A stretch of 32,237 bases of DNA, from NCBI GenBank assembly GCA_001630475.1, contig KV419399.1:904594-936830 (forward strand), in the 5' to 3' direction. A model generated the notes under the pieces. It saw nothing but the letters and a program-made list of their open reading frames with translations. It made no database searches and was not told where the DNA came from. The first letter of the stretch is position 1. Each line of letters begins with the position of its first letter. Below are positions 4,284 through 32,237 of this stretch, in pieces. The position numbers were made by a program, and so were the translations under genes. The stretch comes from Sistotremastrum niveocremeum HHB9708. Lineage: Eukaryota; Basidiomycota; Agaricomycetes; Sistotremastrales; Sistotremastraceae.

Positions 4284-4523
4284 TACAGCAGTCGGACTCT
4301 CCGAGAAGTCCGGATGACGATTTCAAGTCCGACAAGCGCGGACGTCCATCCAGTTTTTCCGCTATCTAACGACTCTCAAGATTGTCCAGAGTCAGAAGAA
4401 GAGAAAGAGATATTGCTGAAGGTGATAGATTCGTGTAGACAGGAAACCTATGACGAGGACGATAGTCGGATTATCTCGGATACTCAGTTCGTAGTCGTGC
4501 TTCGAGTTTCAAATATTAATAAC
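4284..4523 (-). other. Upstream region of F-box copy A
   Basis: On the minus strand this sequence aligns with the spacer upstream of copy E: both contain TGGACGTCC...CGCTT.TCGGACTTG followed by ATCCGGA.TTCTCGG. Copy C has a related block near 17486-17530. It may hold the promoter or 5' UTR. In copy E it is also open in the coding frame, so an N-terminal extension cannot be excluded. Confidence 0.4.
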
Positions 4524-4980
4524 TAGTGTTTGAAAGTCGGGTCAGGTCAGGTTTTGGGCACCTCCGAGGCGATGACTGCAACTTCTAGTGGTCATGGTCA
4601 TGAGATTTTGCCATGACCATGACTGCTAGCGGTTGTGGTCTTGCCAAAACTGGGTGACCATGACCAGACTTTGACCAGTCTTTGTGGTCATGACCTCAAA
4701 AAAGTCCTAAATCTCCACTTTTTAATACTTAATCTGGTTTGTTGGACCTCATATATGATGTATATGACAAGCAGAACACGCCAGAAGGCCTGGGGAAGGC
4801 TCTAGACAATGATCTACCTATGCTGGTCATGGGGTCCAGTCATGGATTACCGGGAGGTCCATGACTGCAACCTGACCATGAGCCCCAAGGCATGACCATG
4901 ACCACGGTCTGGTCATAGTGGTCAGGTTCCAGTCAAGTTACGGTTTTTGAGCAGTCGTGTGACCCGACTTTCAAACACTA
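4524..4980. mobile_element. hAT-like MITE E1, 457 bp
   Basis: Ends TAGTGTTTGAAAGTCGGGTC and its inverted copy at 4961-4980 are flanked by a perfect 8-bp target duplication TTAATAAC (4516-4523 and 4981-4988). Eight-base duplications and TAG/CAG-type ends point to the hAT superfamily. The flanks are full of the words GGTCATG/CATGACC, while the centre (about 4690-4850) is unique sequence shared with element E5 in the opposite orientation. There is no coding capacity. It lies in the spacer between copies B and A. Confidence 0.85.
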
Positions 4981-5046
4981 TTAATAACGTTAACCGCTTA
5001 GTCAAGTCTTCAGCTTTTGAGCGACATGACAGTATGGTATATTCAT

Positions 5047-7646
5047 TTACAAATTCTTCATTGCGTCCCACACATCGGGAGTCTTACGGTTCCACCCAGG
5101 TAGCGAGTACTGAATCTCGACATTATCAACGAACCGCTTCACAGATTTCAGGTTCAGCTCGTTTTGATCACGCTGCCTCTCAATCCATGAGCACCAAGGA
5201 TCAACAACCAGCCTTGACAACTTCACACCCGCAGACATACGTTTTGCCTAGTGTTCTGAGGTCCAGTCACGACTGGACTTTTGACCCCCGGAGGGTGCGA
5301 CTGGCAACTGCCGGTCCGGTTGCTGTCCAAAATTTGGTGTGACTGGCAACTGCGACTGCGGTTGCGGTCCGGCGACCGGTCACGGCTGCGACCAGTTGCG
5401 CAACCAGTCATGGCCACTTTTTCCAGTCACAATTGGTCTTTCATCAATATTTTAATCATTATTATATTATATATGCTGTATATACACCTCACATGATGTG
5501 ATACATGCCTATAGACACCAATATATACTGTACATGTCACTCAAAACACCCATTTGAGACCCAAAATACCCTCTGGGTACCCTGGTTGGGGACCCTTAAG
5601 GGTCCTCGGTTGCGACCACGGTCACGACCAGTCATGACTGCGGTTGCCGGTTGCCTGATTTTCCAAGAACCTGGGCAACCGGCAACTGCGGTCCGGTCAC
5701 GGTCCGGTCGCAACTGCCGGTTGCCACCGGTCACGGCAACTGGACCTTGGAACACTAGATTTGCCAAACATGTCAAGAGCACTTGTTGATCTTTCCACTT
5801 CTGCTTCTTGTCGTCTGAACTTGAATGTTCGGACCGATTACGAGCAGGATTGGATGCACGCTGATCGAGCCAAAGGGACACCAGTTTTGGCCATGGCATA
5901 CCCGAGCCTGAACTGGGTTGTCCCAATATTATGAACATCTCATCTCTGAGATATCCGCTAATTTCGACGCTTGCAACGTGAATGCAGACGGCAAGTAACG
6001 AAGCCCAAACGCTCCAGTCATCGACCCCATGGCTGACACGAAGATGAGTCAAGTTGATGAAAGGACGCACGACCTCGTTCGCAATGCTGGTTCGACTACG
6101 CAAAGAGGTTCGTTCGTCCTGAATGTTCACCTCCACTCGATACAAGACAGTTGGGTTTCCGATATCAGCGAACGTGCTACAAATGGACTCTCTTCGGGTG
6201 TTCCACACCTCAAACTTTAGGGATTTAGTGCGCCTCATGGAATCAACGAGATGATCGGGAATCGTTGGGAAATAGAAGTCCCAGTCCATGGATAACCTAA
6301 CCGTGGACAGACACCGGAACGCAAAGCTGTTGAATAGGCGCTCCACCCCGCCTCTGGCAAGTGTCCAAGGTACCAAGTCTTGAAGACAATCCATGGAGAC
6401 GGCAGAGTGGTCAATCGATGTCATGATTTCTTCGCGCTCTCGAGGAACGACTTCGTTGTATAAGAAGAGGACCATTTCAAGCTTTGGATATCGTTTGAGA
6501 AGGAGGGTGAAATCGTGGTCATTGGCCGTGATTTCGCTGTTTATTATGTGGATGATTTTGAGAGAGGCGGGTAGCGATGATATCCATGGTCCGCTCAATA
6601 AGCATCCTCTGAGCCGGAGAGTGCTCAGGGAAGCAAACGGCATGCACTGCGGGAGAGGAAAATACAAAGCAGGATCAGCAACGGAGTGCCATCCGTTGAT
6701 CCGGAGGTGAGCGAGAGCAGGAGCGGGTTGTGTGCAAAGGAGATCCGAAAGCCATTTCATGCTCGAACCTACGGATGGATCTGATCCGAATGGAAATTCG
6801 TATCCGACGGTCCATGTTGCCTGCCGACTTGTCGACGAATGAGAACCGTCGGTGTTAAGCTCGATGGCTTGAACGCGATTCAAATGCTTCAGGAAGAGAG
6901 GTGCTTTGGAAGTCATCGATTCATCGTGAGTTGGGATTTCCAAATAAAGTTTAGCGTTTTTGCTGAGGACAAGATGTGTTTCAATCCGCCTTTGAGGCCA
7001 ATCGAAGTCGACAGTGTTCCAAAATCGTGCATCCGTGCGAACAGTATGAAGCCATGTAGAACATCTGCATGTCCAAATTTTATTAGATGTCGAACACGCC
7101 GCTGCATGCGAAGGGAATTCACGTACACCAACATAACAGGAGCCCACAACAAAGACCGAAACCTCCGTTCTCCAACTTCTCGTCGATGATGATGCTCCTC
7201 AAGAGAAAAGTCAGATTCGGCGCACCGATGTAGGATATCAGTCTGGATCTCCCGCGGCAGAGTTCTCGCGAAGGCTGAGTCGAAGTTGGACTCTCTCTTA
7301 ATCGCTGATTCCGCCCTGTCAAAAGATGCCAGTGTCATTTGACAAGTCGCGTGAATATCCATCGCTTTGGATCTTAGCGCCTCGGCGCTCCTGTCGATCT
7401 TCACAGCAGCTTTGACCTCTGCTCTAAAATCGAGTCCCAAGTCGATCAAATCCCCGAGCCGGATAGACTGAACCCAATGACTCACACGTTCTCCGCAGCT
7501 ACTTGAAGAGTATGGAGTAGCTTCTCGATTGTTTCATCCAAAGCCCGTGCACCGATGTTCCCAGCACGGCTGACCAGGTCGGCCATGAACAATGATGGTG
7601 CCTCATCCTCGGGTTTTCTGGCGGATGAAGGCGATAGATTCGCCAT
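5047..7646 (-). pseudogene. F-box-like/LRR protein, paralog B, last exon split by MITE E2
   Basis: Exons are 7486-7646, 7127-7423, 5758-7064, and, beyond the MITE, 5047-5248. Introns of 62 nt each match the positions and phases of the other copies. The start is either the ATG at 7646 (MANLSPSS) or that at 7586 (MADLVSRAG), which aligns with copy D; upstream of 7646 the frame is open but without ATG. Residues show the N-terminal helix, then IDRSAEALRSKAMDIH, then the F-box-like core LPREIQTDILHRCAE ... CSTWLHTVRTDARFW, then LRR-like repeats. Apart from the MITE I find no lesion. Reading through the insertion would replace the last 60-odd residues (after LLTCLAN) with 73 residues encoded by the MITE, ending at 5537, for a 661-aa chimeric protein. 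Closest relative in the window is copy D. Whether it is a functional gene or a pseudogene is open. Confidence 0.7.
5249..5757. mobile_element. hAT-like MITE E2, 509 bp, inside copy B
   Basis: Ends TAGTGTTCTGAGGTCCAG and CTGGACCTTGGAACACTA are imperfect inverted repeats. The flanking 8-mers GTTTTGCC (5241-5248) and GATTTGCC (5758-5765) match at 7 of 8 positions, as expected for an old hAT-type target duplication. Words such as GGTTGC, GCAACTG, CCGGT and GACTGG recur on both strands. Reversed, the segment around the GGACCCTTAAGGGTCC palindrome matches E3. No transposase is encoded. It interrupts the LLTCLAN(R)MSAG motif of copy B. Confidence 0.8.
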
Positions 7647-7739
7647 TGAATGGATTGAGAAAGGATGCCTTCTTGTATTGGTGGTGTCCGAGCCTGCTTG
7701 CCACCCGTCCTGGACGTCCTCGGGAAATTCAACCTTCAA

Positions 7740-8535
7740 CCTTGCGATTTCAACTCCGACTCCGGATGCCGATTAACAAGCAAGAGAAGCCATTGCTGTG
7801 ATTATTTTATGTTGGCTTGCAGCCTTATCAATGCGGGTATCAATCACAAATTCCTATCCCAATATCTCAAAACCATCCAGATATCCAGAGTCGCCAGGGT
7901 CGCAAAAAATGAGGGTTCATATGCAGCATGCTGCTGCATGCATCGGGTGACGGGTGTAGAAATCCAAGATGTTGGATGCGAATGTGTCGATGACTACATT
8001 CTCGGTACATACAACGTACATATCCATCCAACGGAGGATGAGCTCTGGACGATCATAATTTAAGGTTCCTGGAGGAGCGTGTTTATCAATTGAGACGTTC
8101 TCGGAACCTTGAGCTCGTGTTCATGACGACAGGGTAGAAATTGAAAGCCAACGCCGTCGGGGAAAGAAAAGCAAAGGCAGAGAAGGTGAAGATATCCGCT
8201 CACATTCCGTGTCACCCTGGACTCCTGAAGTTGCACCTGAACAGTGACCTATCAGCGGTCGAAGGTCGACGGTCAAACAGCGCATCGCATGAATTCATCA
8301 CCTCCGATTCATCCACTCGTTGAATCCTGGAATCACTCATCCACCCTCCGTACACTTAGCGACGTAGCGACGTCAAGATCCAATAATTTGAAATAAATGG
8401 GTGATAAAGCGTAAATTTCAAGGGTGAACGTGTCAACCTGTCGACTCACCGAATCCAGAAACTTTACCTAGTTTACATGTACTGACGCTTTGACTGGGGA
8501 CTTACTATTGCTCAGCAGTGCCAAGAGAGAATGAC
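7740..8535. other. Intergenic region between copy B and the GH47 gene
   Basis: Just upstream of copy B the minus strand still resembles the region upstream of copy D (GGAGTCGGAGTTGAAATC). Further on I see no supported gene. A short self-complementary tract (GCAGCATGCTGCTGCATGC) lies at about 7924-7942 and a short direct repeat TAGCGACGTAGCGACG near 8358-8373. Confidence 0.4.
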
Positions 8536-8640
8536 ACCCTCATCTCAGTCCAGCTTACTCCATTACACGAATACACCGACTTTGTACCTGCTTTGTCTCC
8601 ACTTACCCGCTTCCCTCGCCGTCTCCTACCCTATTTGGTA
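8536..8640 (+). promoter_or_regulatory. Pyrimidine-rich probable transcription start region of the GH47 gene
   Basis: A CT-rich stretch precedes the coding region, typical of fungal transcription starts. A good 5' splice site (GGTAAGTG) lies at 8638, and a branch-like ATTAAC followed by ACACAG occurs at about 8890-8908, so a 5' UTR intron is possible. No clear TATA box was found. Confidence 0.3.
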
Positions 8641-8966
8641 AGTGAAACAACGATGCCGAGCTGCCGAAGAGGAAGTGCCGAGTTGCCGAGGGGATAAGGA
8701 TGCCGATTGCCGATGCCAAGAGATTGAATGCATCGGTTTCGGAGGCATCGGATGCCCCGCACGGCGCACGAGCGAGTGTGACCTGTTTTTCCTGCTCTGC
8801 TCGTGTCGTGTTCGACGTGTCTACCTATCCATTCATCCTCCTCATCACAGCTTTCCTCGTCGTCGGCGTCTGCTTCGTTGTCGACCTCACATTAACAACG
8901 AGGACACAGCACGGGCAGACCCACGTCCTAGAACGACGTGCCTGAACCTCAGACATCGAGTTGGAG

Positions 8967-11900
8967 ATGTTCCCTCAATATCAACGCGGACCACGTCCCT
9001 CCCAACGAAACGTAAACCGTCGTCTCGGACTCGTCCTCACAGTCCTAGGCGGCGCATCCCTATTCGCAGTATACATCCTCACCACCTCCCATCCTTCATT
9101 CTTCACACAAGGTCGATATCCCCCATCACGTCCACACGGACGACCTCTAGGTCGTCCTAAACCCACTTCCCCCTCTGAGTCTAACTCCAACTCTGATTCT
9201 AATAAGGGAGGGAAGGGAGGGGGAGAGGTACATATTTTACCGATTGGGAATGTGGGACCTGGATATGAGGACGAGTATGAAGATGGAGAAGGAGGGGGGA
9301 TGGAAGTGAGTGAGGAGGAGAAAGAAGATGAGATGGATAGGATTATATGGACTGATAGAGCTGGTCAAGTTAAATCTGCCTTCCTCCACGCTTGGAATTC
9401 GTATGAAAAATACGCGTGGGGGTACGACGAGGTATTGCCTATCTCTGTCGGGTCCACCAACAAGTACGTCCTCTTCTTATTCCTAGTGAAAATAATGCTG
9501 ATGGTAGTACGAAAGCTTTAATGGATGGGGCGTATCAATCGTCGATTCACTCGATACTCTCCTCCTACTCGGCCTAGGCCCTCAATTCGACCGAGCAATG
9601 GACCACGTCAACGCACTCAATTTCACCCAATCACAACACGACGTCGCCCCCTTCTTCGAAACTACAATCCGATACCTCGGAGGCCTATTAAGCGCATACG
9701 CACTAGTGGAAGATGGGATTGAGATCGAGCCGATGCGCGAAGGGGGGATGAGGAAGGATCGGGAGATGCTTAGATCCCGGTTTGGTGGAGATGCGAAAGG
9801 GAAGGCAGGGGGGTATAGTGCGAGTGAGAGGAGACAGATTGCGAATACGCTTCTTACACGCGCAGATCAACTCGGTCTCGCGCTCCTCCATGCATTCAAC
9901 ACCACATCAGGTCTTCCAGCCTGGGGCGTTAACACCGTCACGTGAGTCCCCCCTCCTCTATCTTTTATCAAACAAATATGCTGATGGTGGTGTAGACATC
10001 GTCAGCAGAACACCTACTCCGCCCTCCTCGCCGAAATTGGCTCCTGTCAAATGGAATATAAATACCTCGCATATCTCACAGGCCGAAAAGAATATTTCGA
10101 CACTGTGAATGATATAACGGACCGTATGGAACGTGCACAATTGGTTCAGCTGAGAGTTGCTGAAGCGAAGAAGATGAGAGAGATGAAAGCTGCTGCTAAG
10201 GAGGCTGTGAGTGACTCGGTGGATTTGGAAGATGATTCCATTGACGGGGAGGGAGGGAAGGTTGTGATTCAGGAAGATGTAGGAGAGGAGGAAGAGGAGT
10301 TTGTGAGGACTGGAGGGTTGAATGGGATGTGGGGGACGAGATGGGATATCGGATCTGGTGAATCTGTCGACCGTACGTCTCTCAGTTTATTATATTCCAC
10401 AAAAGTACTGACGACCAATGATGCAGAGTATATTGCCGTCGGCGCGCTGGCGGATAGTGCATACGAATATTTATTGAAAGGATATCTCCTCTCCGGACGT
10501 ACCGAAAAACGTCTTCTCGACATGTGTACGTCTCCCTCCCCCTCCTCTCAACTATTCAATGTATCGTTTAATTGATGATGTGATACAGATCTAGCAGCAT
10601 CAACAACAGCCCTCCAAAACCTAACCTACATCTCCCCAACCCGCAACCTCCTTTACATAACCGACTCCACAAACGCATACCCCTCACACAAATTCGAACA
10701 TCTATCCTGTTTCTTCCCAGGCCTCTTAAGTCTAGGCGTCGAATCTCTCAGCGTAGAAGAATGGGCTCCGCTCTCCTCGAGTCGTCTCTCAATCCTCCCT
10801 CCTCCCCCTCCTCCACCTCCACAAATAATAAATCCCTTCGGTCCTCCACAACCTCCCCCACCTCCCCCTTCACCCCCCTCCCCCCATCCCTTCGACAAAA
10901 TCGAGTCAAAGGACAAAACGCGCGGCTCATTCGGCTCATCCTACACATCCCTCCTCGGTCCCCTTACTCCCTCTCAACTTCGCGATCGACATAGTATAGC
11001 TGCACAAGGGGTGGCGGAGACTTGTTGGGTGCTTTATGGGGATAATCCGACGGGGTTGGGGAGTGAGACTGTGTTATTTGATAGGCCTACGGGGTGGATT
11101 GTTTATCCGCCGAAGGAGGGTATTCCTACCAGGTCTACGAAACGGGACTTGGACGAGAGGGACGGGGAGGTGGAGAGGGGTGTGGAAGATGAAGGAGGGC
11201 TCGAGATAGGCTACGTCGGGGAAGGAGATCTCTCCCCCACCGAAGGAGAGAAGAAAGAGTTGACACCGGAAGAAAAGAAAGAGAAACAGCGTCAACGACT
11301 AGAAGTCGTCAACGCAGCTGCCGAACGTCAAAAAGCAAAGGAAGAAGCCGCTCGACAAAAAGCTGCTCTAAAGGATTCCTCTCCACCTCCACCTTCCGCT
11401 CCCAATTCACCCGAATCGCCTAATCTTCCTCCTAACCCATTCCACGGCTCCTCCGGTACATCAAATAAAAAAGGAGGAGGGATATTTAGTAAGCCGAGTG
11501 GACCGACGTATGATATGTCTGCGGGGAGGTGGTGGGATGCTATTGACGCGTGGGAGAGTGTTGGGAGGAAAGGCGCGCTCAAGGGCTCGGGAAAGAAGGA
11601 TGTATGGAGCGATGTCCTGCTTCGCGCCAAGCTCGCTGGACAACCACTCGACGACTCCGCTCCTGAGGCCAATCCTGCGGCTGATAACAATAACAACCCA
11701 GCCGCCGACACTCCTCCTCCTCCCACCCGTCCCGACTCCCCAGGCACAAAGGGGAAGACAGACACAAAGAAGAAAGAGAAGATAAAGATGGATTATACAG
11801 TCCAAGATGCTCGATGGCTTATGCGTCCTGAAACACTCGAATCGCTCTTTTTGATGTATCGATATACAGGAGACGAAGTGTGGAGGGAGAGATGTTGGAA

Positions 11901-12407
11901 GGTTTTTGAGGGGATGGAGAAGTATTCCCGTCTTGGACAAAGTGGGGAGGGTGGAGGGCCTAAATCTAAGAATTTGGATGATAAGGGAGATGGGTATGTT
12001 GGGTATGCGAGTGTGAGGGGGACGAATATCGCTAGGGAGGATGATACCGCAGCAGCGGGTGGCTCGCCGAAGGGAACGAATACGAAGACGGGGAAGTGGA
12101 GTGGATGGTCTCAATATGAAAATTCAATGCCTTCGTACGTCCCCCCTTCTTCACCCCTTACCCCACCCCCACCCCCACCCCCACCCCAATCACCAATCAA
12201 CAAATCTCGATCATACATCTCGATACTAACGCACGTCACAGATACGCCCTCGCCGAGACATTCAAATACATATACCTATGTCTTCTCGATCCCTCAGAGA
12301 GCGAAGCGTTACTTCCTAAGGATAAATGGATATTTAATACGGAGGCGCATCCTTTCCCTGTGTTTGAGTGGAGTGAGAGGCAGATTGAGGAGTGGGGGAT
12401 TCGGTGA
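8967..12407 (+). CDS. Class I alpha-1,2-mannosidase, glycoside hydrolase family 47 (1036 aa)
   Basis: Six exons: 8967-9463, 9516-9941, 9996-10372, 10427-10525, 10589-12134 and 12242-12407. The five introns (52, 54, 54, 63, 107 nt) splice to one open frame. Residues 20-38 form a signal anchor, so a type II ER/Golgi membrane protein is expected, trimming alpha-1,2-linked mannose from N-glycans. GH47 landmarks in order are FNGWGVSIVDSLDTL (about 167), EIGSCQMEYKYL (321), GALADSAYEYLL (439), the cysteines C507 and C612 that form the family disulfide, RPETLESLF (879) with a conserved catalytic Glu, and FNTEAHPFP near the C-terminus, whose Thr1015 is the usual calcium ligand. The usual enzyme core is about 450-500 residues. 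Here low-complexity inserts expand it: acidic (about 70-125), Gln/Lys/acidic (about 350-430), polyproline (about 535-570), and Lys/Pro-rich (about 630-860). Start: first ATG before the membrane anchor. Splice sites are supported by family alignment from memory. Confidence 0.93.
12161..12188 (+). repeat. (CCCCCA)n microsatellite in GH47 intron 5
   Basis: Short tandem run of a C5A-type unit inside the last, longest intron of the mannosidase gene. Confidence 0.8.
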
Positions 12408-13284
12408 TCTTTTGACGGGACGATGGACTCCTCGTGGACGGAATGATCCTCGTTGGTCCGGGCGGCGTGACGAGGGCGGCGGCGGCGGATTGGAGGGCTT
12501 TATCTCGCAATGAGGTCCAAGGTGGCCGAGGGGAGGCTGGGAAATGTGAAGGTGCAGATCGTCAACGTTTGAAGACCTCACTTTGAGACGAGTCGAGTCG
12601 ACGTGGCATCTCCCACCACCGTCCCCAGTATCAGTATGTTTATATCCAGATCTATTTCCACTCATCTTCTTTCTTACTTTGGCCTACCATCATGCATCGG
12701 GTCATACGCGTACTATTTGGTCATCACTCTCATTATACTCTTTTCTCTTTCCTTTTGCGGCGGATTGCTCTTACAGTGTTATTGTACTCGCACTCGTTGT
12801 GTATTTTTATATTATCTCATGGGATTTTTATTCTCTATCTGGCCCGATCACGGCTCGATCGCGTATTGTGAGAGCTAGCGTCAACATTGAGCTCGAAATA
12901 AAGTTGTGAGCTGGACGAGGGGAATTGGAAGATATTCTCGTCTTCAGGTTCGAGTTATTCTTGGCGGCGTCTCTAGATTTCGCGGATTTTGATAAGGGTT
13001 ACTAGTATGCTAGCGCGTCGAGCCTAACGCATGGACACTGCAAAACAACACCGGTTTGAGTTCATTCGATTTCATTGATGTTCGTGACTATGAATATAAC
13101 TATGAATATTGTACAATTACACTTCCTTTCCGGAATTATTGTAAGCGGAGTAGTGTACTCAAAAGACAAGAAAAGATAATACGAAAGGATCCGCAGATCC
13201 GGATGCATGCTACAGTAAACTCCATTGCAAATGTCGTCCGTCATTCGTCGAGGGTAAGCGGGTTCGGGTTAGATCAGGAGGAGA
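12408..13284. other. GH47 3' UTR and convergent intergenic region
   Basis: Sequence between the stop of the plus-strand GH47 gene and the stop of the minus-strand DUF6593-like gene. Short frames here lack recognisable motifs and are taken as untranslated. Confidence 0.5.
12897..12902 (+). terminator. Poly(A) signal of the GH47 gene
   Basis: AATAAA 490 nt past the GH47 stop codon, the only perfect signal noticed on the plus strand before the convergent gene. Confidence 0.4.
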
Positions 13285-15880
13285 TTACTCCTCGTCCTCT
13301 TCGTCCTCCTCCACTTCTTCGGCTTCGTCCTCCTCCTCCTGATGATCATCATCTTCATCTTCTTCATCCGCCCAATCCCTCTTCCTAACCGTAACATCAG
13401 TCTTCGCCCTCCTCCTCCCCCTCATATCCATCCCATTCATCCCTCCAGCCATCCACTCCCTCCTCCCTTCATACCCAAATCCACCTCCCCCAATATCAAT
13501 CTCGCGCAATCCAACACTCGAGAATCCGCCCACAGGCGATAGAGGTGACCAAGGCGATAAAGGCGGTAAAGGAGCACCCGCCGCGGAGGAGGAAGAGGGG
13601 GTGGAGGAAGGTTTCATGTCGACGTCTTTGGATGCGTCGCCTAGGTATATGAATGTGAATTCGCGCTTTTCGCGGCGGGGGGTTAGGATTGGTGTTGGTA
13701 TTGGAGGCGGAGACGTTGGGTGTGATGTTGATGGTGTCGATGTTGATGTTGATGATTGAGCAGAGGTTGAGGTGACGGGAGTAGGGGCGAAATGAGCGTG
13801 TGGTTCTGGTTTTTGCCAGGGGTGAGGTTGAACGGACGATGGCGATGACGATGTATGAGGATGATGAGAGAATTGGGGAAGATGAGGAAGATGCGGTAAA
13901 TGCGGTAAATGAGGAACATGAGAAGATGAACGTGGATGTGGATGTGAATGCGATGATGGTGAATTCGAGCTCGTACTCGATCTCTGTGAAGTCGACCCGG
14001 AAGCCGAAGCTAACGTATCCGTATTCGAATGCGAATGCGAAGCGACAGATATCGAGGTCGACAGTGTCGATCCAGAGGGTCTTTCGTGACATTTCCCACC
14101 TTCGATACATCCCCCTTCACACCTCCTCGTAATGTCAATGACGACTTCAGCTTCAGAAGGCGAAGGGAGGACGAATGGCGTGATGAATTTCTCAGGATGA
14201 CGACTGCTATGCGAGAGGGAATGAGAATGACTATGACCATGTCCGTGAAAGTACGAATGAGCCGGGGATTGAGTGTGAGATGTTGAGGAAGGTGTACGTG
14301 GAGTCCGAGGCGTCTTGGGAGTTTTAGGAGTTCGGAGGAGCGTCGAAGATGATGTGGAGAACGTCGGTGCTGTCTTTAGTCGATTCAGCCTCGGACGAGG
14401 ACGCGTCTGAGTCTGAGTCGAAGTTTGAGTATATGAAGTCGCTGCGGACGCGGCGACTGATATTGACGATGTAGCAGGAGCCAGGGTCGATGTTGTAGCA
14501 GATGAAGATGAAGAGACGATCGTGGTAGATGTCTTGGAGAGTGCTAACTTGACCGATCTTGCATCCGAGGTATGTGAAGCGCTATTCGTCGATGTATGAC
14601 TCGTATGACTCGACGTTGATCCGGATCCGGAGAAGATGGAATGACCATCTTCGAATGTCACTGATGCCGACGTCGGCGTCAACATCCCAGCCCTAGCCCC
14701 CGTTCCATGTTCCTGCCCAATTGAACTGCGATAGCTCTTCCGTCGAATAGCAGTTAACCGTAAACTCGGCTTTCGGCGCACAGCCGGCGTCGTCGGTGCT
14801 GCTGGCGGAGACTCGACAGCGTGGGAATGCGATGAGCCGGAGCCGGAAATAGAGGAGGAACCTAATTTGGACGGTGACGTCATAATCCGTAAACTCTTCA
14901 TCGACTTCATCGAGCGCATTCCCGAGCCCGCCGACGCTCCCGACCCGCCCGCACCCGCGCCCGACGCAGCTCCCGATCCCGATCCCGTCGATCCCGGAGT
15001 TACGGGAGTCATCACTCCGCCCACGCCCACAGAATTCGACGTAGAAATAGCAGTCGTCATAGTTCCCATAGTCGTGGACGAAGTCGCAGTAGAGCCAGAG
15101 TGGACCATCCCCGGAACGGGAATACTGACTGAAATGGTAATATTTTTCGGTTGTGGAAGTTTGATTACATTGTTCAGACCGCTTGGACCTGGGTCAAGGG
15201 TTACGGTGCCGTTCTCCGTCGATTGAATGTATCTCCATTCGTCCTTTCTGGCGGTTAGGAGGATCGTGGAGAGGACGAGATCGTCCATGTGTGGGTGACC
15301 TGAAGGAAGGACGACGAGTCTGGATTTCGAGGAGGGTACGAACAAAGCGAGGAGGACGGTGCCGGATGTAGAATGCGTGGAGAGCATAGGGAGAGTGTGT
15401 GGTTGAGAATGAGACGAAGATGAAGGCGAAGTTGGTGTGAGAGGTGATGAGGGTGGCGAATTTGCAAGGTGGTATTCGTACGAGGCTTCACAAGTCCATA
15501 CTTGAGACTCAACGTGCGGAATGAGAGAACCATCATTCGAAGTAAGGTTAAGGCCATTAAGAAGATCATGAAGCGTTCGAGAAGACGATGATAGTGGACG
15601 CCATTTGAACGTTTGATTAGGCGCAGTTATGGGCGTGAATTTTCTCCAGCTAAGACAATCAGGATGCGGCGGTAATGAAAGAAGGCACGACGTACCTAGC
15701 GAATGGGTTCTTCGACTTTTGAAACCAACTGTCCACCGGAACAGGTGGCAGACTCAAGCCTTGCTCGGCAGCTGCAGTTCTTGAGACACAAACCGCTCTG
15801 CTCGTTAAGCCGCCTGCACTGCTTCCGTGACCGTTGGGGATCCCATAGCCAGCCCACAACACCTTCCCAATCTCATTCAT
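13285..15880 (-). CDS. DUF6593-like protein with long Ser/Thr/His-rich disordered tail (849 aa)
   Basis: Two exons, 15696-15880 and 13285-15649, with a 46-nt intron (GTACGT...TTAG, phase 2) joining KSKNPFA to SWRKFTPITAPNQTFKWRP. The N-terminal 150-220 residues look like a small beta-rich domain: FKWRPLSSSSRTLHDLL, an aromatic strand, then GTVLLALFVPSSKSRLVVL and MDDLVLSTILLTARKDEW. This resembles fungal DUF6593 proteins from memory, with no known function. The remainder is low complexity: Gly/Ser-rich, Ser/Thr-rich, a (Gly/Ser)-His tract, HLP tandem repeats, and a C-terminal Asp/Glu tail. One island, VVIDITRRCEGGC with a further Cys six residues on (C-x3-C-x5-C), looks conserved rather than random. 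The start at 15880 is the first ATG in the open frame and is uncertain, since the frame stays open to about 16282. Confidence 0.6.
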
Positions 15881-17480
15881 CGTCTCACTCCCTGAATCCA
15901 GGGCACGCTCCGGAGCGCCCATTCGAGAAGATGGACCATTTGTTCCACGAAAAAGAGTGGTGGTAGAGCCGCGAGTGCATGTCGCATAGACAACTTGTTT
16001 CGATATAGGACAAGTCAAAGGGGTATCGAGTATTGATGGGCCGGCAAGACAGAGCGTTTGAGCGGGACACAGCAAGGATCCTGATCGTTCGGTACCAGAC
16101 CTTTTCATCATCCTCGAGGTCACAAGTCGACGTTCCAGCCAACTAGTGGGCGACTCGGAAAGTAGGTCCACGCCAACAGACGAGCGGTCTTTGTAGTAAG
16201 TAGCACGACACGACGGATGGAGTCGAGTATAGTCTGTACAGTCATCCCGACCTTGGAACTGCACGGCGAGTCCTTGCACCACGGTAACGGCCTGTCTGAC
16301 TCATTACCTGCGTCTTTTGCCAGAATAGAAATGAACAGGTGGAGGCGGCGTCTTCGCCTAATCCGGAAGGTGCCCGACTCCGAACTTCCGACTCTCAGGC
16401 CTTCCGAGCTTCGCGAGCGAATTCAGTCCGTTGCATTTGTTATGCAGCGCTCCTCACGCTCATCTCCCTCTGGGCCCTCAGGGCATGTGCTTCGCTTTCC
16501 ACCCCAGATTTAATTCGAGTAGAGTTAACCGCTGCATGTAGGTCTTCGTCCGGCGGTGCAATCGACTCGAAGGAAGCTCGTTCGCCTATAGGTACGCTTA
16601 GCAGCTTAAAGTTCTCCGTGGGGCTTGCACGAGCGTGTTTTTCGGAACTACCCCTTCGCTGCGTGCATCTAAGTGTTGGGTGGTGCGATGGGAAAGACTC
16701 TGCGTGGTGGAGATACATTGCAAGATGCGCGATCACACGTGATGAGTTATCGACTCTATGCTGAGTATATCCCAGCTTCCATTTCTCAAACGCTCTCAGG
16801 ATTCAAATTTATCTACGGAATCACGATACTCGTAAATCCACCTCTCGAGCGACTTTCCCTCTCAAGCTTTTCCCTTCGAACATTCCATCCCCTCCCTTCA
16901 CCTCAACCTCAATCTCATGTCAACTCTCAAAATATCCATTTCCCCAATCGCTACGTCTCGCGAATGCGCGCATCATAGCTCAGTAATACATCATCGGGGA
17001 CCTTAATGTTCAGCCAGCCTCGTTTCCCCAATGTCCGTAGATTATCCATCCATCATTTGCTGGCCGTTGCCGGGCTCGGCGCCGAGCCCATCCAATCTAT
17101 CAACGCCAGGCACTACTTTACTTGCCATGCTCTGTGGGGTTTATAAGGTCCATCTAAACCAGGTTCCTGATTCGAAGCGACTCAAGCCCTTCTGGCTGGC
17201 ACGACATGTAAATCTTAGCGACGGGCTTTTCTCGGCCGTTCCTATTATGGCCGCAAAGCACTCGCATACTCCAGAAGGATCCTGCAGGAGGGAATGAATT
17301 CGAATGAATGCCCTCTGCAGAAATACTCTGCCCAGTGTATGTGAGGAGAATTCTCTGTTTCGAAATACTTGGGACGTCGCCGACTCGTTTGGCTTGGCTC
17401 CCATTTTTAAACTTTGTTCCCTGTCACCTCCTCTGTAATTACATGTAGGGTTGTAACAACAATCAAATATAATATACTAT
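15881..17480. other. Intergenic region without a supported gene
   Basis: Several open frames of 80-200 codons exist on both strands in a GC-richer part (16300-16700), including a plus-strand one at 16339-16764. None shows a domain, paralog or splice series I can support. The strands are about equally open, which argues for base composition or a degenerate repeat rather than a gene. Confidence 0.4.
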
Positions 17481-17751
17481 AGTGTTGGACTTCGCTTGTC
17501 GCCGAAGTTGTCGGACTTGGAATATCGAATGACCCGTAATGGCTCCCGTGATGAATCGCTCGATATCAAGATTATAGATCTTGAGCTCTTAATCGGCAAT
17601 GACGGACGTTCCAAGTTCAGATATAATGGAGAACAACTCTTATCGGTCTTCGATCGAGGAGCTGGTCTTGCGGGCTGGCAACAACGGGGGCTAAGCTCTG
17701 GATGAAGCAATAGCAAAGCTTATTGACGTTCTTGAGGCGGCTACAAAACAC

Positions 17752-19386
17752 GGATAATACTATTTGGCAACCCGGTTTCCCGGGTTGTTTCGAATTTTCT
17801 TACAAATCATGATCCCGGGATAATGGTGTCTAACCCCGGAGTCAAACGTAAATTGTATTCAGGGAACTAGGACATTGATGAAGAGGCTCAATAACTAGTA
17901 ATTTTGCAAAGAGATCCGGGACTTGGGATGGCAAATTTGTAGAAAGAGTGACAGGCGAACGATGATGATAGCCGAGTAGGAGGTTTGGTGTGAGGAGCAG
18001 AAGATTTTCGTCGAGGATGGGCTGTGCGAGCTCCAGAACTGGTAGGGTGTTTGGTGATTTGAGTGATGATGTCGGCTTCGGTCCTGAAGTAGGGGCAGTG
18101 AAGGGAGCAGGAGAAGCGATCTCTTCACATCGCGACGATAAGGATGCGTTAAATAGCGGAAACCTATTGCTAAAGACAACAAGTTGGAGGGGGTCCCGGA
18201 AGAACAGAGGGGATTATCGGTCGAGGTCGTCCTATCCGATCTGAGGGTATCAATGACAGACTGGGGCGAGGGTTGGAATGCGAGACGCGCGCAAGTTGAG
18301 AAGAGATGAGTCGCATCATGGAGATGGGACAAGGACGTCGATGAGGGAGCGGAGAGTCGAGACTACACCAACGAGAGAAGGGGAGAAGGTCGTCAGCGCT
18401 CCATGTTGAAGAACAAGTAAAAAAAAGCGACACACACGTACGGGTGTTCGACGAGGTTCGTGAGCTATTCATTCATTCATGCCATCTTCCTTGTACAATA
18501 GATGCAATCAGACTCCTAATACCGATTCCTTCGTCCGGTGGGCGAGGCGAAAGGAGCTTCCAGTTGCAGACTCCTCAGTACGAGAACTACGGATGTCGAG
18601 ACAACTGTGCGAGTGAGCCGGCTGTTGGATGCAGCTATACGCATGGATCAACGTGGATGGATAAGAGTCGAAAGCCTCAGAGACGTTATGCAGAACCCAT
18701 CGTGAACTCGAGACGTTGAGAGCCAGCGTCAAGCAAGTCCTGCATGGCGCGAATAGGGTTTTAAGGTCCAGTCCATGTGACTGCAAAAAACCGCAGTTGC
18801 AGTCAGGTTGTGACTGGACCTGCAGTTGCGGTCTTTTGGATTTCTGAAAATTTGGCAACTGGCAACTGCAGTTGTGACCAGTCGCAACTGTGGTCGCAAC
18901 TGAGGACCCTTAAGGGTCCCCAAACAGGGTGGTCACAGGGTATTTTGGGTCTCAAGTGGGTCTTTATACCCTTGTTTTCATTATATATTGGATTATATAG
19001 TGTTATTAAGTATTACTAGACACTATATGACCACTGATAAGACCCAAAAACAATATATAAATGAATAAAATAGTGGTTTATACCAGTTATGACCTCAGTT
19101 GCTGCCCATGACTGGTCAGGCAACTGGTCTCTTTGTGACTGGTTGCTAGACCCTGCAACCGGTTGCAGCTGCCAGTCATGCAAAAATTGGGTCCGCAACC
19201 GGACCGGCAGTTGCCGGTTATGAGAAAAAAGGGCCAAGGTCCAGTCATGACTGGACCTTAAAACCCTAGGCGCGAAGGAAGTCGCTCGGCGTTTGCCGGA
19301 CTCAACGCTCATGATCCTTGCTTACTTCAGAAATCATATCTTGATCACAGCAACCTCCGAAACCGGGTTGCCAAATAGTATTATCC
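17752..19386. mobile_element. Non-autonomous Mutator-like (MULE) element, 1635 bp, with a nested MITE
   Basis: Perfect 28-bp terminal inverted repeats (left 17752-17779 beginning GGATAATACTATTTGGCAAC, right 19359-19386) are flanked by a perfect 9-bp duplication ACAAAACAC (17743-17751 and 19387-19395). A 9-bp duplication with TIRs of this length suits the Mutator superfamily. Removing the element and one duplication restores the exon 1/intron 1 junction of copy C exactly as in A and E. The roughly 1.1 kb of own sequence encodes no transposase I can recognise, so it would depend on an enzyme elsewhere. The MITE E3 is inserted inside it. Confidence 0.85.
18754..19268. mobile_element. hAT-like MITE E3, 515 bp, nested in the MULE-like element
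   Basis: Ends TAGGGTTTTAAGGTCCAGTC and the inverted GACTGGACCTTAAAACCCTA are flanked by a perfect 8-bp duplication GGCGCGAA (18746-18753 and 19269-19276). Flanks carry repeated AACTGCAGTTG, GGTTGC and CAGTCATGACTG words. The central part is about 90 percent or more identical to that of E4 by eye, although the outer ends differ. It is younger than the MULE-like host element. Confidence 0.88.
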
Positions 19387-21186
19387 ACAAAACACGTGTT
19401 AGTTCTCTTTCGCAGTCAATCATTCCGATGTTTGACTGAGGTCTGTTCTGTGTTTCTAGATCGGAGATCAGGGAGACTCTCAAAATAGATAGGACCGTCC
19501 AAGTCGATAGCTTAAGGTCGAAAGCGATTGATATCAACGCAGTCGCTCAGAAGACTGTATCAGAGTTGGGTGTCGCCTTCTCACAGGCGACGTCAGCGTT
19601 GAATCGCGAGTCTAATTTCGGCACGGCCTTCTCGAGGGCTCTTCCAAAAGAGATACAAGCAGATATTCTACTCCAATATGCCAAATCGTTCGACGAGGAG
19701 AGCTTCTACGGTGGTTATCTGCATGCGCACGAAAACTGGAGACATATTCCTCGCATTTCAAACTGGGCCGATATAATGCTAGTGTACGTCCGGGTCCTAT
19801 CAATGTGATGTACAAGTTTAATAATATACAATTCATAGGTGCTCCAGCTGGTATCATATCATTCGAACGGATCCGCGATTCTGGACTTCAATCAGTTTCG
19901 CGTGGCCTCGATCCAAGATACAGACATATCTTACCCTCAGCAAACAAGCCCGACTCCATCTAGCACTCCCTACGGCAAACCCATTCATTCTTCACAAATC
20001 GGAGCTGCTTATGACGCATGTTCATCGCGCCCAAGAAATAGAGCTCCATCCTCAGGTTAGACCCGTACGAGCAGGGGTGATTCTCAATTCATACCCGTGG
20101 GGCAACAACGTCCCTGAGATCAGTCCAGTCTGGCAGTTCATGTCGGATATTATCGATCAGAAACTGGCGCCTTCACTCACTCATCTCATGATCGAGGATC
20201 ACAATAGCATTTACACTCTTCCATCGATCATGTCATTTTCCACTCTGAGCATCCTCGAACTGAAAGGGTGTTTCTTGAGAGGGCCGTGGGCCGAGACTTT
20301 CCCGGCATCTCTTCGAAAGATTCACATCTTCAGAAGTGACATTCATGCCGATCTTCATGATCTCTTGAATCTCCTCCGACGCTGTGCCATGCTTGAAATG
20401 CTCATATTTTCTTGGAACGAGGTTTCGCCTCGTGAACATGGAGAATCTATTGCACGGACTGACCAATCCATATGCGTCAAACATCTTCGAGGACTGGAAA
20501 TTTGGCATTCTGAAAAACACAAAATGGAGCAGTTCTTCGATAGCTGCACATTCCATCGTCTAAGTTCACTCAAGATCTATATCCAGCACCCACTTTCTAC
20601 CCCTCCCTTCGTACCCAGTTACTTCTCCGAACGCATGGCACGTACCACATCTATGAAGCTCAGAGTGACGGACATCTCCATCGGAACCACGTTCGCGGAT
20701 CCTAGTTCCCCGGACGTGCAGTATTTCCTCGACGTGATTTTCTATAGAGAGCAAAAATCAGCACCTGAATGGCACACTAATTTCAACGAGGTCATCCACC
20801 ATTTCACAAACCTGACACATCTAATGTTCCATCAACCTCGTTATGGCGACCATGGGTCACTACGATGTGCATGGCCTTCGCTAGTCTCGGTATTCAGAAG
20901 CATCACAATCTTGGAAGTTGGTGGGTGTATTGACGAAGAAATGTTCATGATCTTGGGAAGTCGTACAAGGAAAGGGCCTGACACGGTCTCCGAGATGCCC
21001 TTGCCTTGTTTGGTATATCTTCGTCTCGAGGATGACCAAGCCCATCCAGATAGGTTTTATCGGCCTCTTACCGAAGAAGAAGAAGAAGAAAGTCTAGCCT
21101 CCCCGGAGGATGTGTCTCGGTCGAAGAAGGCAAAACACCGCTATGAATTATTGTTGACCTGCTTATCGAATCGCATGGCTGCCGGT

Positions 21187-21691
21187 TAGTGTTTGAAAGT
21201 CCAGTCCACGTGACTGCAGGCAACCGCAGGTCGTGGTGGGGTCGTGACTGGACTGCAGTTGCTGGTCATCTAGATTTCTGAAAATCAGGCAACCGGCAAC
21301 TGCAGTCATGACCAGTCGCAACTGTGGTCGCAACCGAGGACTCTTAAGGGCCCTCAGACAGGGTATTTTGGGTGTCAAGTGACCATTTATGGCCATGTAT
21401 TCATCAAATATGGTACCATATAGTGTTCCTATGTGTTAATACACACTATATGACCACTAATAAGACTCAAAAACAATATATAAATGAATAAAATAATGGT
21501 TTATGCCAGTTATGACCTCAGTTGCTGGCCATGACTGGTCAGGCAACTGGTCTTTTTGTGACTGGTTGCCGGACCCTGCAACCGGTTGCAGTTGCCAGTC
21601 ATGCAAAATTTTGACAGGCAACCGGACCGGCAGTTATCAGTCACGGGCAAAAAGTCAAAAAGTCCAGTCGCAACCGGACTTTCAAACTCTA
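21187..21691. mobile_element. hAT-like MITE E4, 505 bp, inside copy C
   Basis: Ends TAGTGTTTGAAAGTCCAGTC and GGACTTTCAAACTCTA (one mismatch in the outer 16) are flanked by a perfect 8-bp duplication CTGCCGGT (21179-21186 and 21692-21699). The interior matches E3, including the ATATATAAATGAATAAAATA tract, while the outer ends are those of E1/E5. It sits in the last exon of copy C and its first three bases act as an in-frame stop. Confidence 0.88.
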
Positions 21692-21918
21692 CTGCCGGTG
21701 TCAAATTGACAAGACTGGCAGTGGATTCCTGTTGCATCTGGATAGAACGGGGAATCGATAATTGGGAGGTGAATTCAGAGCGTGTTGAGCGCTATGTGGA
21801 TACTTTTGAAATCGATGAGACTGTCATCAATTGGTATGCTTCGCTCCCTTCGTCGAACACCGGGGGTAGTGGACAATCGGGCTTGAAATCGAAGAAATGC
21901 GGGTGGAACTTGTGGTGA

Positions 21919-22287
21919 GTTTCAATGAGAGTCGCATGGTGTATTCCATTCTTCCCGCTGCCGATTCGCCTAATGACTCAGTCTCAATGAGAAGAAGCGT
22001 TTGCAAGTGCGTCTTCAGGTCAGGGGGGGAGGTTTGCGGTTCCAAAAGCTGCGGAGTGTTATGTTGCATAAATTAGATGCGGATGTTGAGCAGAATGATA
22101 CATCTGAATCTCTCCATGTCTGAAGTTCCGAGATGCCATCAGGCGGCCTGGGATCCTCGAAAGAAACTGCGACTCTTTTCTATCAACTTAGTATCAAGAC
22201 CCCATCTCGCTGCCCACCTCCCCTTGCCCCCCAGAAGGTAGTATTTGTAGCTTCGAGACATAATTCTATTCTATCTCGACAAAAAAA
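21919..22287 (+). other. Spacer between copies C and D
   Basis: The first 150 bp resemble the sequence around 27870-27990 downstream of relic F (a shared block reads ATGAGAAGAAGC against GTGAGAAGAAGC), which shows that C and F share a 3' flank. A C-rich/CT-rich tract at about 22205-22235, followed by A8 directly before an ATG at 22288, looks like a promoter or transcription start of copy D. Confidence 0.4.
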
Positions 22288-22586
22288 ATGAATTCAAGAT
22301 GTAAGGATTCCAACAGGCCAATGACTTTTGGAAGGCCGGTTCGGCTACCTCAGCCGGTTCGTCTTCCGGATTCGGATTCGGAGTCGGAGTCGAAATCACA
22401 AGCTTGGGCCGCCGGGACGTTGAACTCGAGGAGGGCATCCTCTGATGCAGCACGGGCAAGGATCTGACACAGACAGGAACAAGACTCAAGCGGACACTTC
22501 CATTCACCAACACAACGCTGAACGCTCCGTCATCATCTGCACCCAAGATAGAGAACGACTTGGAGAATGAGTCACCATCAGTGTTC

Positions 22587-25072
22587 ATGGACGAACTGGT
22601 CAGCCGCGCTGGGAATATCGGTGCACAGGCCCTGGATGAGACGATAGAGAAGCTACTTGATGCTCTTCAGTTGGCTTCGAAGCGCGTGTGAGTCGTTGAC
22701 TTTCCTCCACCAGTATGTTATGTCCGCTAATTTTGCCCGGGATTGGGGACGCGATTTTAGAGCAGATGTCAGAGCTGCTGTGCAGATCGACAGGAGCGCA
22801 GAGGCACTGAGAGCCAAAGCGATGGAGATTCACGCGACTTGTCAGATGACTCTGGCCTCTTTTGACACGGTCAAAGCAATGATCAATAGAAAATCCAACT
22901 TCGACACGACATTCGCGAGAACTTTGCCGAGGGAGATCCAGACTGATATCCTACATCAGTGCGCCGAATCTGAGCTCTCTCCTCGAGAGCAGCATCATCA
23001 CCGGAAAACTGGAGAACAGTATTTTCAATCTGCAAACTGGGTTCCTGTCATGCTGGTGTACGTGAAATCCCTTCGCATGCTCGACACTCGATGACATTCG
23101 AATATGTAGATGTTCTCCGTGGCTACCAATTATTCGCACGAATGCGTGATTCTGGAACACTATCGACTTCGATTGGCCTCAACGGCGAATTGAAACACAT
23201 CTTATCCTCAGCAAGAAGGCTAAACTTCATTTGGACATCCCAACGCACGATGAATCGATGATTTCCAAAGCACCGCTCTTCCTAAAGCATTTGAATCGCT
23301 AGTGTTTGCAAGTCAGGTCACTTAACCGCCAAATAACTGCGACTTAGCCATAACTTAACCATTTGTGACCTAACCATGGTTAATGGTCATGGCTCAGAGC
23401 TGGTGGTCAAGTCACAGTCATGGACCTCCCGGAAATCCTTGACCGCTTGCCTTGACCAACATGGGTAGATCCTTGTCTACAGCCTTCCCCAGGCCTTCCG
23501 ATGTGTTCTGCTTGCCATATACATCATATATGAGGTCCAATAACCTAGTTTAAGTAGTAAAAAGTGGAGATTTATGACTTTTTTGAGGTCATAACCGCAT
23601 TAACCGGTCAAAGTCAAGTCATGGTCACCCAATTTTGGCTTAACCGTGACCGTTGGCGGTTATAGGTTACAGCAAAACCCATTAACCATAACCGCGGTTT
23701 GGTTACGGTTAGGGCCTCCGAGGTGCCTATAACCTAACTTAACCTGACTTTCAAACACTATGAATCGCGTTCAAGCTATCGAACTTAACACCGAAAGATC
23801 TCCTTCGTCGAGGAGTCACCGGGCACCACGAACTGTCGGATACGAATTTCCATTCAGTTCGAGTCCATCCATAGGTTCGAGCATGAAGTGGCTTTCAGAT
23901 CTCCTTTGCCTACAACCTGCTCCTTGTCTTGCTCACCTCCGGATCAACGGGTGGCAGACCGTTAGTGATCCCAGTTAATATTTTCACTCCCGCAGTGCAT
24001 GCCTTATGCTTCGCTGAGCACTCTCCGACTCAGAGGATGCCTATTGGGCGGACCGTGGATATCAACGCTTCCTGCATCTCTCAAATTCATCCACGTGATC
24101 AACAGCGAGATCACGGCCAATGATCATGATTTTACACTCCTTCTCAAACGATACCCAAAGCTTGAAATGGCCCTCTTCTTGTACAACGAAGTCGTTCCTC
24201 GAGAGCGTGAGAAGACCATAACATCGATTGACCAGTCTGCCGTCCCCATGGAACGTCTCCAAGCCATGGCGCCTTGGACATTGAGCAGAGGCGGGGCGGA
24301 GCGCCTATTCGATAGCTTTGCCTTCCAGTGTCTGTCTACGGCTAGGATATCAATGGACTGGGATTTCTCTTCTCCAACATTACCCGATCGTCTTGTCGAT
24401 TCAATAAGGCGCACTGCGTCTCTAAAATTTGAGGTCTGGAACACCCGAAGAGAGTCCATCTGCAGCACGTTTGCTGACCCCGAAAACCCAACTGTCGTGT
24501 ATCGATTGGAGGTGAACATCGCGGATGAACAAGCTTCAATGCGTAGTCGAATCGGCATTGCGTATGAGATCGCACATTCTTTCATCAATCTGACACATCT
24601 TCGTGTCAGCCATGCGGTCAATGACTGGAGTGCTTGGGCTTCGTTACTTGCGGTCTGCGTTCACGTTGAAAGTGTCGAGATTAGTGGATACCTCAGGGAT
24701 GAGATCTTCCTGATCTTGGGAAGATCTGATCCAGGTTCGGGTATGCCATGGCCTAAGCTAGCGTCCCTTTGGCTCGATCAGCGTACAACCAATCCCGCCT
24801 CCTGTAGGTCCAGAGATCCGGACGATAAAAAGCAGTTCTTGAAGGATAGCTCAGTGCTACTGACGTGTCTGGCGAATCGCATGAACGCCGGTGTGAAGTT
24901 GTCGAGGCTGGTTGTGGACCCTCAGTGCTCATGGATTGAGAGGCTGCATGATCAAAACGAGCTGAACTTGATGCATGTGAAGCGTTTTGTGGATCATGTC
25001 GAAATTCAGGATTCGCTGCCTTACGAGTACGGCCAGAATCCCGGTGTGTGGGATGCCATGAACCATTTGTAA
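22587..25072 (+). pseudogene. F-box-like/LRR paralog D, multiply broken
   Basis: Exon 1 from the ATG at 22587 (MDELVSRAGNIGAQALDE) ends at 22687. Intron 1 is 22688-22760, exon 2 22761-23057 (297 nt, as in B), intron 2 23058-23109, and exon 3 runs from 23110 to the stop at 25070-25072. Lesions are a TGA at 23147-23149 in the F-box motif (RTNA-stop-FW where B has RTDARFW), MITE E5 at 23300-23760, a TAA at 23976-23978 where B has a Leu codon, and a 1-nt deletion about 8 nt later. Downstream of about 23999 the frame is clean for 357 codons with LRR-like repeats (SLSTLRLRGCLLGG) and the tail CSWIERLHDQNELNL. An older, longer 5' end from the ATG at 22288 is possible but is in another frame. Closest relative is B. 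Confidence 0.75.
23300..23760. mobile_element. hAT-like MITE E5, 461 bp, inside copy D
   Basis: Outer ends TAGTGTTTGCAAGTCAGGTC and the inverted complement of TAGTGTTTGAAAGTCAGGTT are flanked by a perfect 8-bp duplication TGAATCGC (23292-23299 and 23761-23768). Read in reverse it shares its centre with E1 (block with CCTCATATATGATGTATATG), but its flanks carry TTAACC/GGTTA words where E1 has TGACC/GGTCA. It interrupts the FLKHLNRVQAIEL motif of copy D. No coding capacity. Confidence 0.87.
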
Positions 25073-32142: not shown

Positions 32143-32237
32143 TAGAGTTCCAAAGTCCAGTCACGACTGGACTTTTTCCAAAATTCCTTGTGACTGGCAA
32201 CTGCGACCGGTTGCCAAATTCCAAAATGTCCATGACT
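32143..32237. mobile_element. hAT-like MITE E6, first 95 bp
   Basis: Begins TAGAGTTCCAAAGTCCAGTC, then CACGACTGGAC, GGCAACTGCGACCGGTTGCC and further words as in E2-E4. The preceding 8-mer CTGCGAAC (32135-32142) is the predicted target duplication. The right end is outside the window. It interrupts the first visible exon of the Plavaka transposase. Confidence 0.75.

Follow-up and report, generated by a model that had tools for sequence, protein, structure and literature searches.

Two sister families of a short mobile element in the fungus Sistotremastrum niveocremeum HHB9708 differ in the short words that are scattered through their arms, and this contrast is real and non-random. The families are represented by the elements E1 and E5 in a stretch of 32,237 nucleotides of contig KV419399.1 (positions 904,594 to 936,830), which we call the window and in which positions are counted from the first letter. 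E1 carries the word GGTCA, and E5 carries both GGTTA and GGTCA. A first-pass annotation of the window had described the contrast as the concerted replacement of one word by another throughout an element, and this overstated it. The reading that we favor, at a probability of about 0.5, is a gradual and constrained turnover of GGT-anchored, subterminal, binding-like words, perhaps together with recombination.

E1 and E5 are best explained as sister subfamilies of one non-autonomous hAT-like miniature inverted-repeat transposable element (MITE). Their parts in the window are as follows (TSD stands for target-site duplication).

4516..4523: left 8-bp TSD of E1 (TTAATAAC)
4524..4980, plus strand: E1, MITE with GGTCA-type words, 457 bp, 17 GGTCA and 0 GGTTA, TSD TTAATAAC
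4692..4821, plus strand: E1 core, alignment columns 171-300 (limits set by us), nearly identical in E5
4981..4988: right 8-bp TSD of E1 (TTAATAAC)
6875..6882: empty (pre-insertion) site of E5, the 8-bp overlap of the inverted pairs I4 and I5, by flank alignment
23292..23299: left 8-bp TSD of E5 (TGAATCGC)
23300..23760, minus strand: E5, MITE with GGTTA and GGTCA words, 461 bp, 16 GGTTA and 10 GGTCA, TSD TGAATCGC on the plus strand
23761..23768: right 8-bp TSD of E5 (TGAATCGC)

The coordinates of both elements, the terminal inverted repeat (TIR) common to their ends (TAGTGTTTGAAAGTC), their common centre and the word contrast all agree with the first annotation. The outer ends of E1 are inverted over 21 bp and carry TAGTGTTTGAAAGTC, a short TIR as in MITEs of the hAT superfamily. 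TIRs of hAT type start with a TAG/CAG-like motif, and an 8-bp TSD is a hAT trait. At 457-461 bp, both elements are too short to encode a transposase. The window lies in a 34.7-Mb assembly of 111 contigs, which was searched genome-wide for copies of E1 and E5; the DNA searches score up to 40 candidates, and all copy numbers are lower bounds. We find at least 10 E1-like places (one partial), at least 32 E5-like copies (28 full and 4 partial), and one intermediate, a chimera. The 38 full-length copies (9 E1, 28 E5, and the chimera) have exact 8-bp TSDs in 36 cases, and the two exceptions show 1 mismatch in one and 6 in the other. The window also contains an inverted duplication, and the empty site of E5 sits in its homologous other arm; the related element E4 has an empty paralogous site in the window as well. 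TSDs and empty sites together imply that both word types have spread by transposition, as opposed to arising by in-place mutation of one copy.

The E1 set consists of the self match and 8 further full-length copies, one of which (L040, 531 bp) is counted in the word table (9 E1) and is absent from the alignment (8 E1). The chimera is omitted from both consensuses and from the tree, and five partial copies (C43:233575, C12:12003, C22:364324, C24:426248-427436, which is split by an insertion, and C5:12517) are excluded from both word table and alignment. The core differs between the two consensuses in 8 of 130 columns. A core pattern allowing up to 3 mismatches occurs at 42 places, and a DNA search with the core scored 40 (the best 40 of 43 candidates); all of them fall within full or partial copies of E1, E5 or the chimera, so that neither the pattern nor the search (best 40 of 43) found a further family with this core. 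As for genomic placement, the 28 E5 copies lie at a median of 33 kb from a contig end and the 10 E1 places, of which one is partial, at 113 kb (p = 0.05); compared with uniform placement across those contigs, the nearness of E5 to their ends has p = 0.02. A subtelomeric reading of this placement is weakened because the end of a contig is not the end of a chromosome and assemblies break at repeats.

Word content is bimodal. Each E1 copy (n = 9) has 15-18 GGTCA and 0 GGTTA, each E5 copy (n = 28) has 13-18 GGTTA together with 10-13 GGTCA, and no E1 or E5 copy was found between 0 and 13 GGTTA; the chimera has 10 GGTTA and 14 GGTCA. The tree (midpoint root) splits E1 (8 rows) from E5 (28 rows) by one branch with support 100/100. 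The copies thus form two separate classes, of which the E5 class is one of mixed words. A continuous gradient of words, with repeats and core equally diverged, which had been named as the pattern that would speak against a coordinated switch, is not what we observe: no E1 or E5 copy stands at 1-12 GGTTA, and, with gaps counted, the consensuses differ at 9/81 positions of the E1 words, 8/130 of the core and 75/250 of the other arm columns. Divergence is lower in the E1 words than in the other arm columns (p = 6e-4), which also means that the bases between the words are by no means unchanged, as had been claimed.

Word by word, the 17 GGTCA of the E1 consensus correspond in E5 to 9 GGTCA, 7 GGTTA, and 1 AGTTA. 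With 9 of 17 words untouched and mixed words in every E5 copy, replacement throughout the element does not describe the data. Conversely, the 16 GGTTA of the E5 consensus trace to GGTCA in 7 cases and to other sequences in 9 (GGTTT, GGTCT, AGTCA, AGTCG, GGTCG, GTTTG or gapped), and some of these 9 required transversions and an indel. A C-to-T change confined to the repeats, which had also been suggested, would account for at most 7-8 words. Six word sites within E5 (columns 68, 74, 216, 304, 317, and 423) are polymorphic in at least 2 copies, and hence words also change singly, site by site. Tandem slippage of words was rejected, as runs reach only about 2 copies. We also observe a strand bias: 6 of the 8 changed GGTCA words of E1 are on the plus strand and 7 of the 9 unchanged ones on the minus strand, that is, plus-strand words changed in 6/8 cases and minus-strand words in 2/9 (p = 0.057).

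The regularity behind these changes lies in the trinucleotide GGT. Taken on either strand, there are 36 GGT per consensus, and 29 of them occupy the same columns in E1 and E5. Arm divergence is 9/93 in these anchors, 25/60 in the two bases that follow them, and 44/172 elsewhere (p = 8.5e-5 for anchors vs. all other arm columns, p = 0.022 for suffixes vs. the rest). The suffix changed at 14 of the 29 shared anchors, 12 times to TA and twice to CA. The TA suffix is found in 16/36 GGT words of E5 vs. 6/256 in the E1 consensus and the members counted of the clan of related elements (E1 consensus 0/36, E2 0/39, E3 1/34, E4 0/26, the L018 end 1/27, L081 2/29, L084 1/26, the L073 host 0/16, and the L015 end 1/23). 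The arms of the other clan members are themselves dense in GGT, at 51-145 per kb vs. 27 window-wide. Comparing fixed with polymorphic differences gives 13/27 for GGT, 21/29 for suffixes, 14/68 for other arm bases and 5/43 for the core; the excess of fixed differences lies in the GGT words and their suffixes (34 fixed vs. 56 polymorphic), in a comparison that is partly circular because the word classes were built from both families. When the words are defined on E1 alone, suffixes stand at 19/22 vs. 22/82 (p = 0.004).

The convergence on GGTTA exceeds what chance allows under two substitution models. In the first (null A), the changed columns are kept fixed and their bases redrawn from the observed matrix; in the second, changes are shuffled within 40-column bins (5000 runs each). 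The 16 GGTTA of the E5 consensus compare with a mean of 8.5 and a maximum of 14 under null A, and with a mean of 2.2 and a maximum of 8 under shuffling. In a scan of all 5-mers from E1 to E5 (1000 runs), GGTTA ranks first in enrichment. In the reverse direction, the 17 GGTCA of E1 stand above all shuffled runs (mean 6.6, maximum 13) but are no significant excess over null A, in which the columns are fixed (mean 15.1, p = 0.09). This asymmetry indicates that the unusual feature is GGTTA in E5 and not GGTCA in E1. What stands of the coordinated change first proposed is therefore a weaker form, in which convergence beats both nulls and the copies fall into two separate classes.

How could such a pattern come about? 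The subterminal arms bear many short words, in both orientations, each consisting of a GGT anchor that is conserved and a suffix of two variable bases, and these words would most likely be binding sites for the mobilizing transposase or for another protein. Between the two lineages the anchors would have held their register while the suffixes shifted towards TA, for the most part through single-base changes, so that some of the sites became GGTTA. The mobilizing machinery would then probably tolerate both GGTCA and GGTTA, and selection acting through mobility may have driven the suffixes to converge. GGTTA is the putative derived state, given how seldom it occurs among the rest of the clan members counted. 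We also put forward, as a tentative proposal against which we would ourselves bet, that this is the cis side of an arms race in a MITE without tandem arrays: binding words would be re-tuned site by site, with GGT kept and the two arms adopting one new suffix, under selection imposed by a change in the mobilizing or silencing protein. If the words are binding sites, then E1, E5 and the natural chimera make a ready series of GGTCA, GGTTA and mixed elements, one that could show how many weak sites change together in an element that remains mobile.

Several observations weigh against this reading of the words. When the comparison of fixed with polymorphic differences is repeated as a control with 29 trinucleotides, GGT comes third, below CTT and GTT, so that this comparison is not specific to GGT, and with words defined on E5 alone the suffix excess (15/20 vs. 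27/82) has p = 0.054. The matrix of null A was taken from the very differences being tested, GGTTA was chosen after the data had been seen (which the 5-mer scan corrects in part), and the reverse test against null A given above was negative. There is also no sign of a continuing drive: by column counts, the polarized shared changes within E5 comprise 4 that create GGTTA and 3 that destroy it, an unpolarized change also destroys it, and the 39 private E5 changes destroy 3 GGTTA and create none. An increase of GGTTA over time within E5 is thus unsupported. Pfam recognized no BED finger in the L018/L079 pieces; besides the piece with the hAT dimerization domain of L018, 4 of the other 5 gave no family. 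As the available account of Hermes illustrates, in which AAGT is associated with the BED domain and the BED site was judged to be something other than the striking GTGGC repeat (PMC10368747), a conspicuous repeat need not be a binding site. Finally, the contrast between arms and core could stem from recombination.

Recombination is at the heart of the main rival, a serious one, which we consider possible without thinking it probable: the arms would be old and diverged, the core (about columns 121-280) would have been shared more recently by recombination or gene conversion, and the word contrast would reflect the age of the arms and not a coordinated change. The mean divergence between E1 and E5 is indeed stepwise, at 0.39-0.44 in columns 41-120, 0.03-0.13 in 121-280, and 0.24-0.36 in 281-440, with steps near columns 120 and 285, and the changed GGTCA words of E1 follow these blocks (5/5 in columns 17-96, 1/5 in 134-174, and 2/7 in 304-445). 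Within E5, polymorphism is no lower in the core than in the arms (18/58 shared changes in 130/461 columns), and in E1 the core holds 2/27 shared changes. Moreover, the chimera (C41, L041 601-1059) joins an E5-type left part to an E1 right part resembling the C2 copy, within an exact 8-bp TSD. Its columns 1-200 are 98-99% identical to the best E5 match and columns 341-461 are 98% identical to the C2 copy, while columns 281-340 are close to neither of the two. This composition implies that E1 and E5 do recombine. A mosaic history alone leaves unexplained both the suffix convergence on TA beyond the nulls and the retention of the anchors, and the E5 search (best 40 of 44 candidates) revealed no third family bearing arms of this kind. 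It may also act jointly with word turnover. Under such a history, with old arms and a core exchanged by recombination, the pair would be an example of MITE families trading modules. Private, post-insertion substitutions (56 in E1 and 39 in E5; 57 and 39 when consensus gap columns are included) bear on the same contrast: they are spread evenly (core 25/260 sites, arms 70/656; p = 0.72), whereas the differences between the consensuses concentrate in the arms (p = 4e-6), which points to arms set apart by selection or age and not by a local mutation rate. The same substitutions make it unlikely that the words changed by C-to-T mutation at CpA in one lineage, as in repeat-induced point mutation (RIP) or deamination, with later amplification. 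All 7 GGTCA-to-GGTTA changes and the one to AGTTA include a CpA-to-TpA step, and within words 8/27 CpA sites changed; this is little above the 6/30 in arms outside words and the 2/17 in the core, and 9 of the 16 GGTTA have precursors other than GGTCA. Private C>T changes number 19 at CpG and 6 at the roughly twofold more numerous CpA sites. Such CpG decay argues against RIP, as no excess of CpA-to-TpA is seen in the repeat copies, and RIP or deamination as the sole cause is disfavored.

The first-pass annotation had also raised a switch to a different transposase recognizing GGTTA, which we find improbable. The separation of word content in E1 and E5, with no intermediate besides the chimera, is what such a switch would produce, but the E5 copies retain their 10-13 GGTCA, and the chimera, with its left arm of GGTTA type and its right arm of GGTCA type, has an exact TSD (which in-place conversion would also keep). 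A GGTTA-cluster pattern has 150 places vs. 50 for the reversed control, and among the matches listed (C4 to C47) all clusters lie in E5 or chimera copies save those at C4:1010566, C26:386445, and C38:134670. The genome has 21 matches to the hAT dimerization domain, read as stretches of 2.3-3.2 kb, with flanks extended by 2.6 kb beside L018 and 1.2 kb beside L016. No GGTTA-rich end was found in the 21 stretches, which mostly do not span both ends of an element, save at L023. There, positions 1-115 at the start of contig C25 consist of telomere-like CTAACC/CTAACCG units (GGTTAG/CGGTTAG) and not of plain TTAGGG, and the presence of GGTTA is probably a coincidence and not a transposon word. Clan-type ends near hAT genes occur only at L018 and, more loosely, at L015, and the TIRs are not identical. 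At L018 a hAT dimerization domain (Pfam E-value 3e-13) adjoins an end TAGTGTTTTAAACTG that bears GGTCA/GGTCG words, no second end being found in 2.6 kb, and at L015 a similar end lies 0.8 kb beyond the hAT reading frame. Very improbable, in our view, is an explanation by a foldback hairpin, in which words on opposite arms change together, by compensation or templating, because they pair. Compared with 40 mononucleotide shuffles, the folds of both consensus strands are more stable (z -10.8 and -7.2), pairs in which the two partners both changed number 6 and 7 vs. permutation means of 2.5 and 2.1 (p 0.021 and 0 of 2000), and in a local palindrome at columns 68-103 both arms have changed. Set against this, 35-36 pairs are broken for the 6-7 compensated, and the E1 and E5 folds share only 40 of about 156 pairs; with pairs mostly broken, we rejected hairpin compensation.

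Short subterminal repeats of hAT elements would be the natural model for the gradual turnover of words that we favor. According to the accounts available, the Ac transposase binds the short subterminal repeat AAACGG (PMC3260210), the Herves transposase binds the subterminal CG/AATTCAT (PMC3143072), and hAT-derived proteins often prefer CGG or CGC (PMC8097297). E1 and E5 resemble Ac/Ds, Herves and Hermes in having short repeats in their ends (PMC3260210, PMC3143072, PMC10368747), and Ds is described as a non-autonomous partner that shares TIR and repeats and not the interior (PMC3260210). Unlike Ac, Herves or Hermes, E1 and E5 are two sister families on one scaffold that differ in the dominant word suffix. 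The short maize Ds1 and Ds-like elements are likewise defined by TIR and subterminal repeat, with a heterogeneous interior, and the available part of that source describes no word change on a conserved core (PMC3260210). By analogy, the closest case of family-specific motif change would be the VANDAL elements of Arabidopsis and their VANC proteins, for which the portions at hand report short non-coding motifs that differ between related families, C-type and T-type variants included (PMC5735166, PMC10398659). VANDALs, unlike E1 and E5, have tandem motif arrays and encode the binding protein themselves, as these sources have it (PMC5735166, PMC10398659), whereas E1 and E5 measure 0.46 kb and have words dispersed in register, with tandem runs of only about 2 copies; neither an element-encoded VANC-type protein nor tandem arrays were found. 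The literature searched, of partial coverage, gave no description of dispersed word change in MITE families.

The window holds five complete TIR elements, E1 to E5, and a sixth begins at 32143. The three related ones are:

5249..5757, minus strand: E2, related GGT-rich element with GCAAC/GGTTG words, flanks GTTTTGCC / GATTTGCC (one mismatch)
18754..19268, plus strand: E3, related element, TIR TAGGGTTTTAAGGTC, TSD GGCGCGAA
21187..21691, plus strand: E4, related element with E1/E5-type TIR, words and core different, TSD CTGCCGGT, empty paralogous site

E3 and E4 have 82% similarity across their length, yet their TIRs (TAGGGTTTTAAGGTC vs. TAGTGTTTGAAAGTC / TAGAGTTTGAAAGTC) differ at the same positions at both ends, and E4 has the TIR of E1/E5 type: the two ends have changed in parallel on a single scaffold. 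Elsewhere in the genome, an E2-type element at locus L073 on C31 (1426-2301) holds an inserted E4-type element whose 8-bp duplication, CTTAAGGG, was identified by eye, and at L072 (C14:807500-809800) two facing E4-type ends flank a run of N. A single TIR at C68:49910 was considered as an autonomous element and rejected as an E4-type copy. GCAAC-rich stretches near the hAT genes at L014, L021, and L028 were rejected as transposon ends; they match elements of E2, E3, E4, and E6 type and are probably neighboring MITEs. A Pfam scan of 8 of the 18 listed open reading frames of the window gave two families above the cut-off, Plavaka transposase and GH47, the rest being sub-threshold or without a match. 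Along with genes that look rich in introns, these results would point to a basidiomycete. The Plavaka match is to the reading frame at 29823-31388 on the minus strand (Pfam E-value 4.6e-77).

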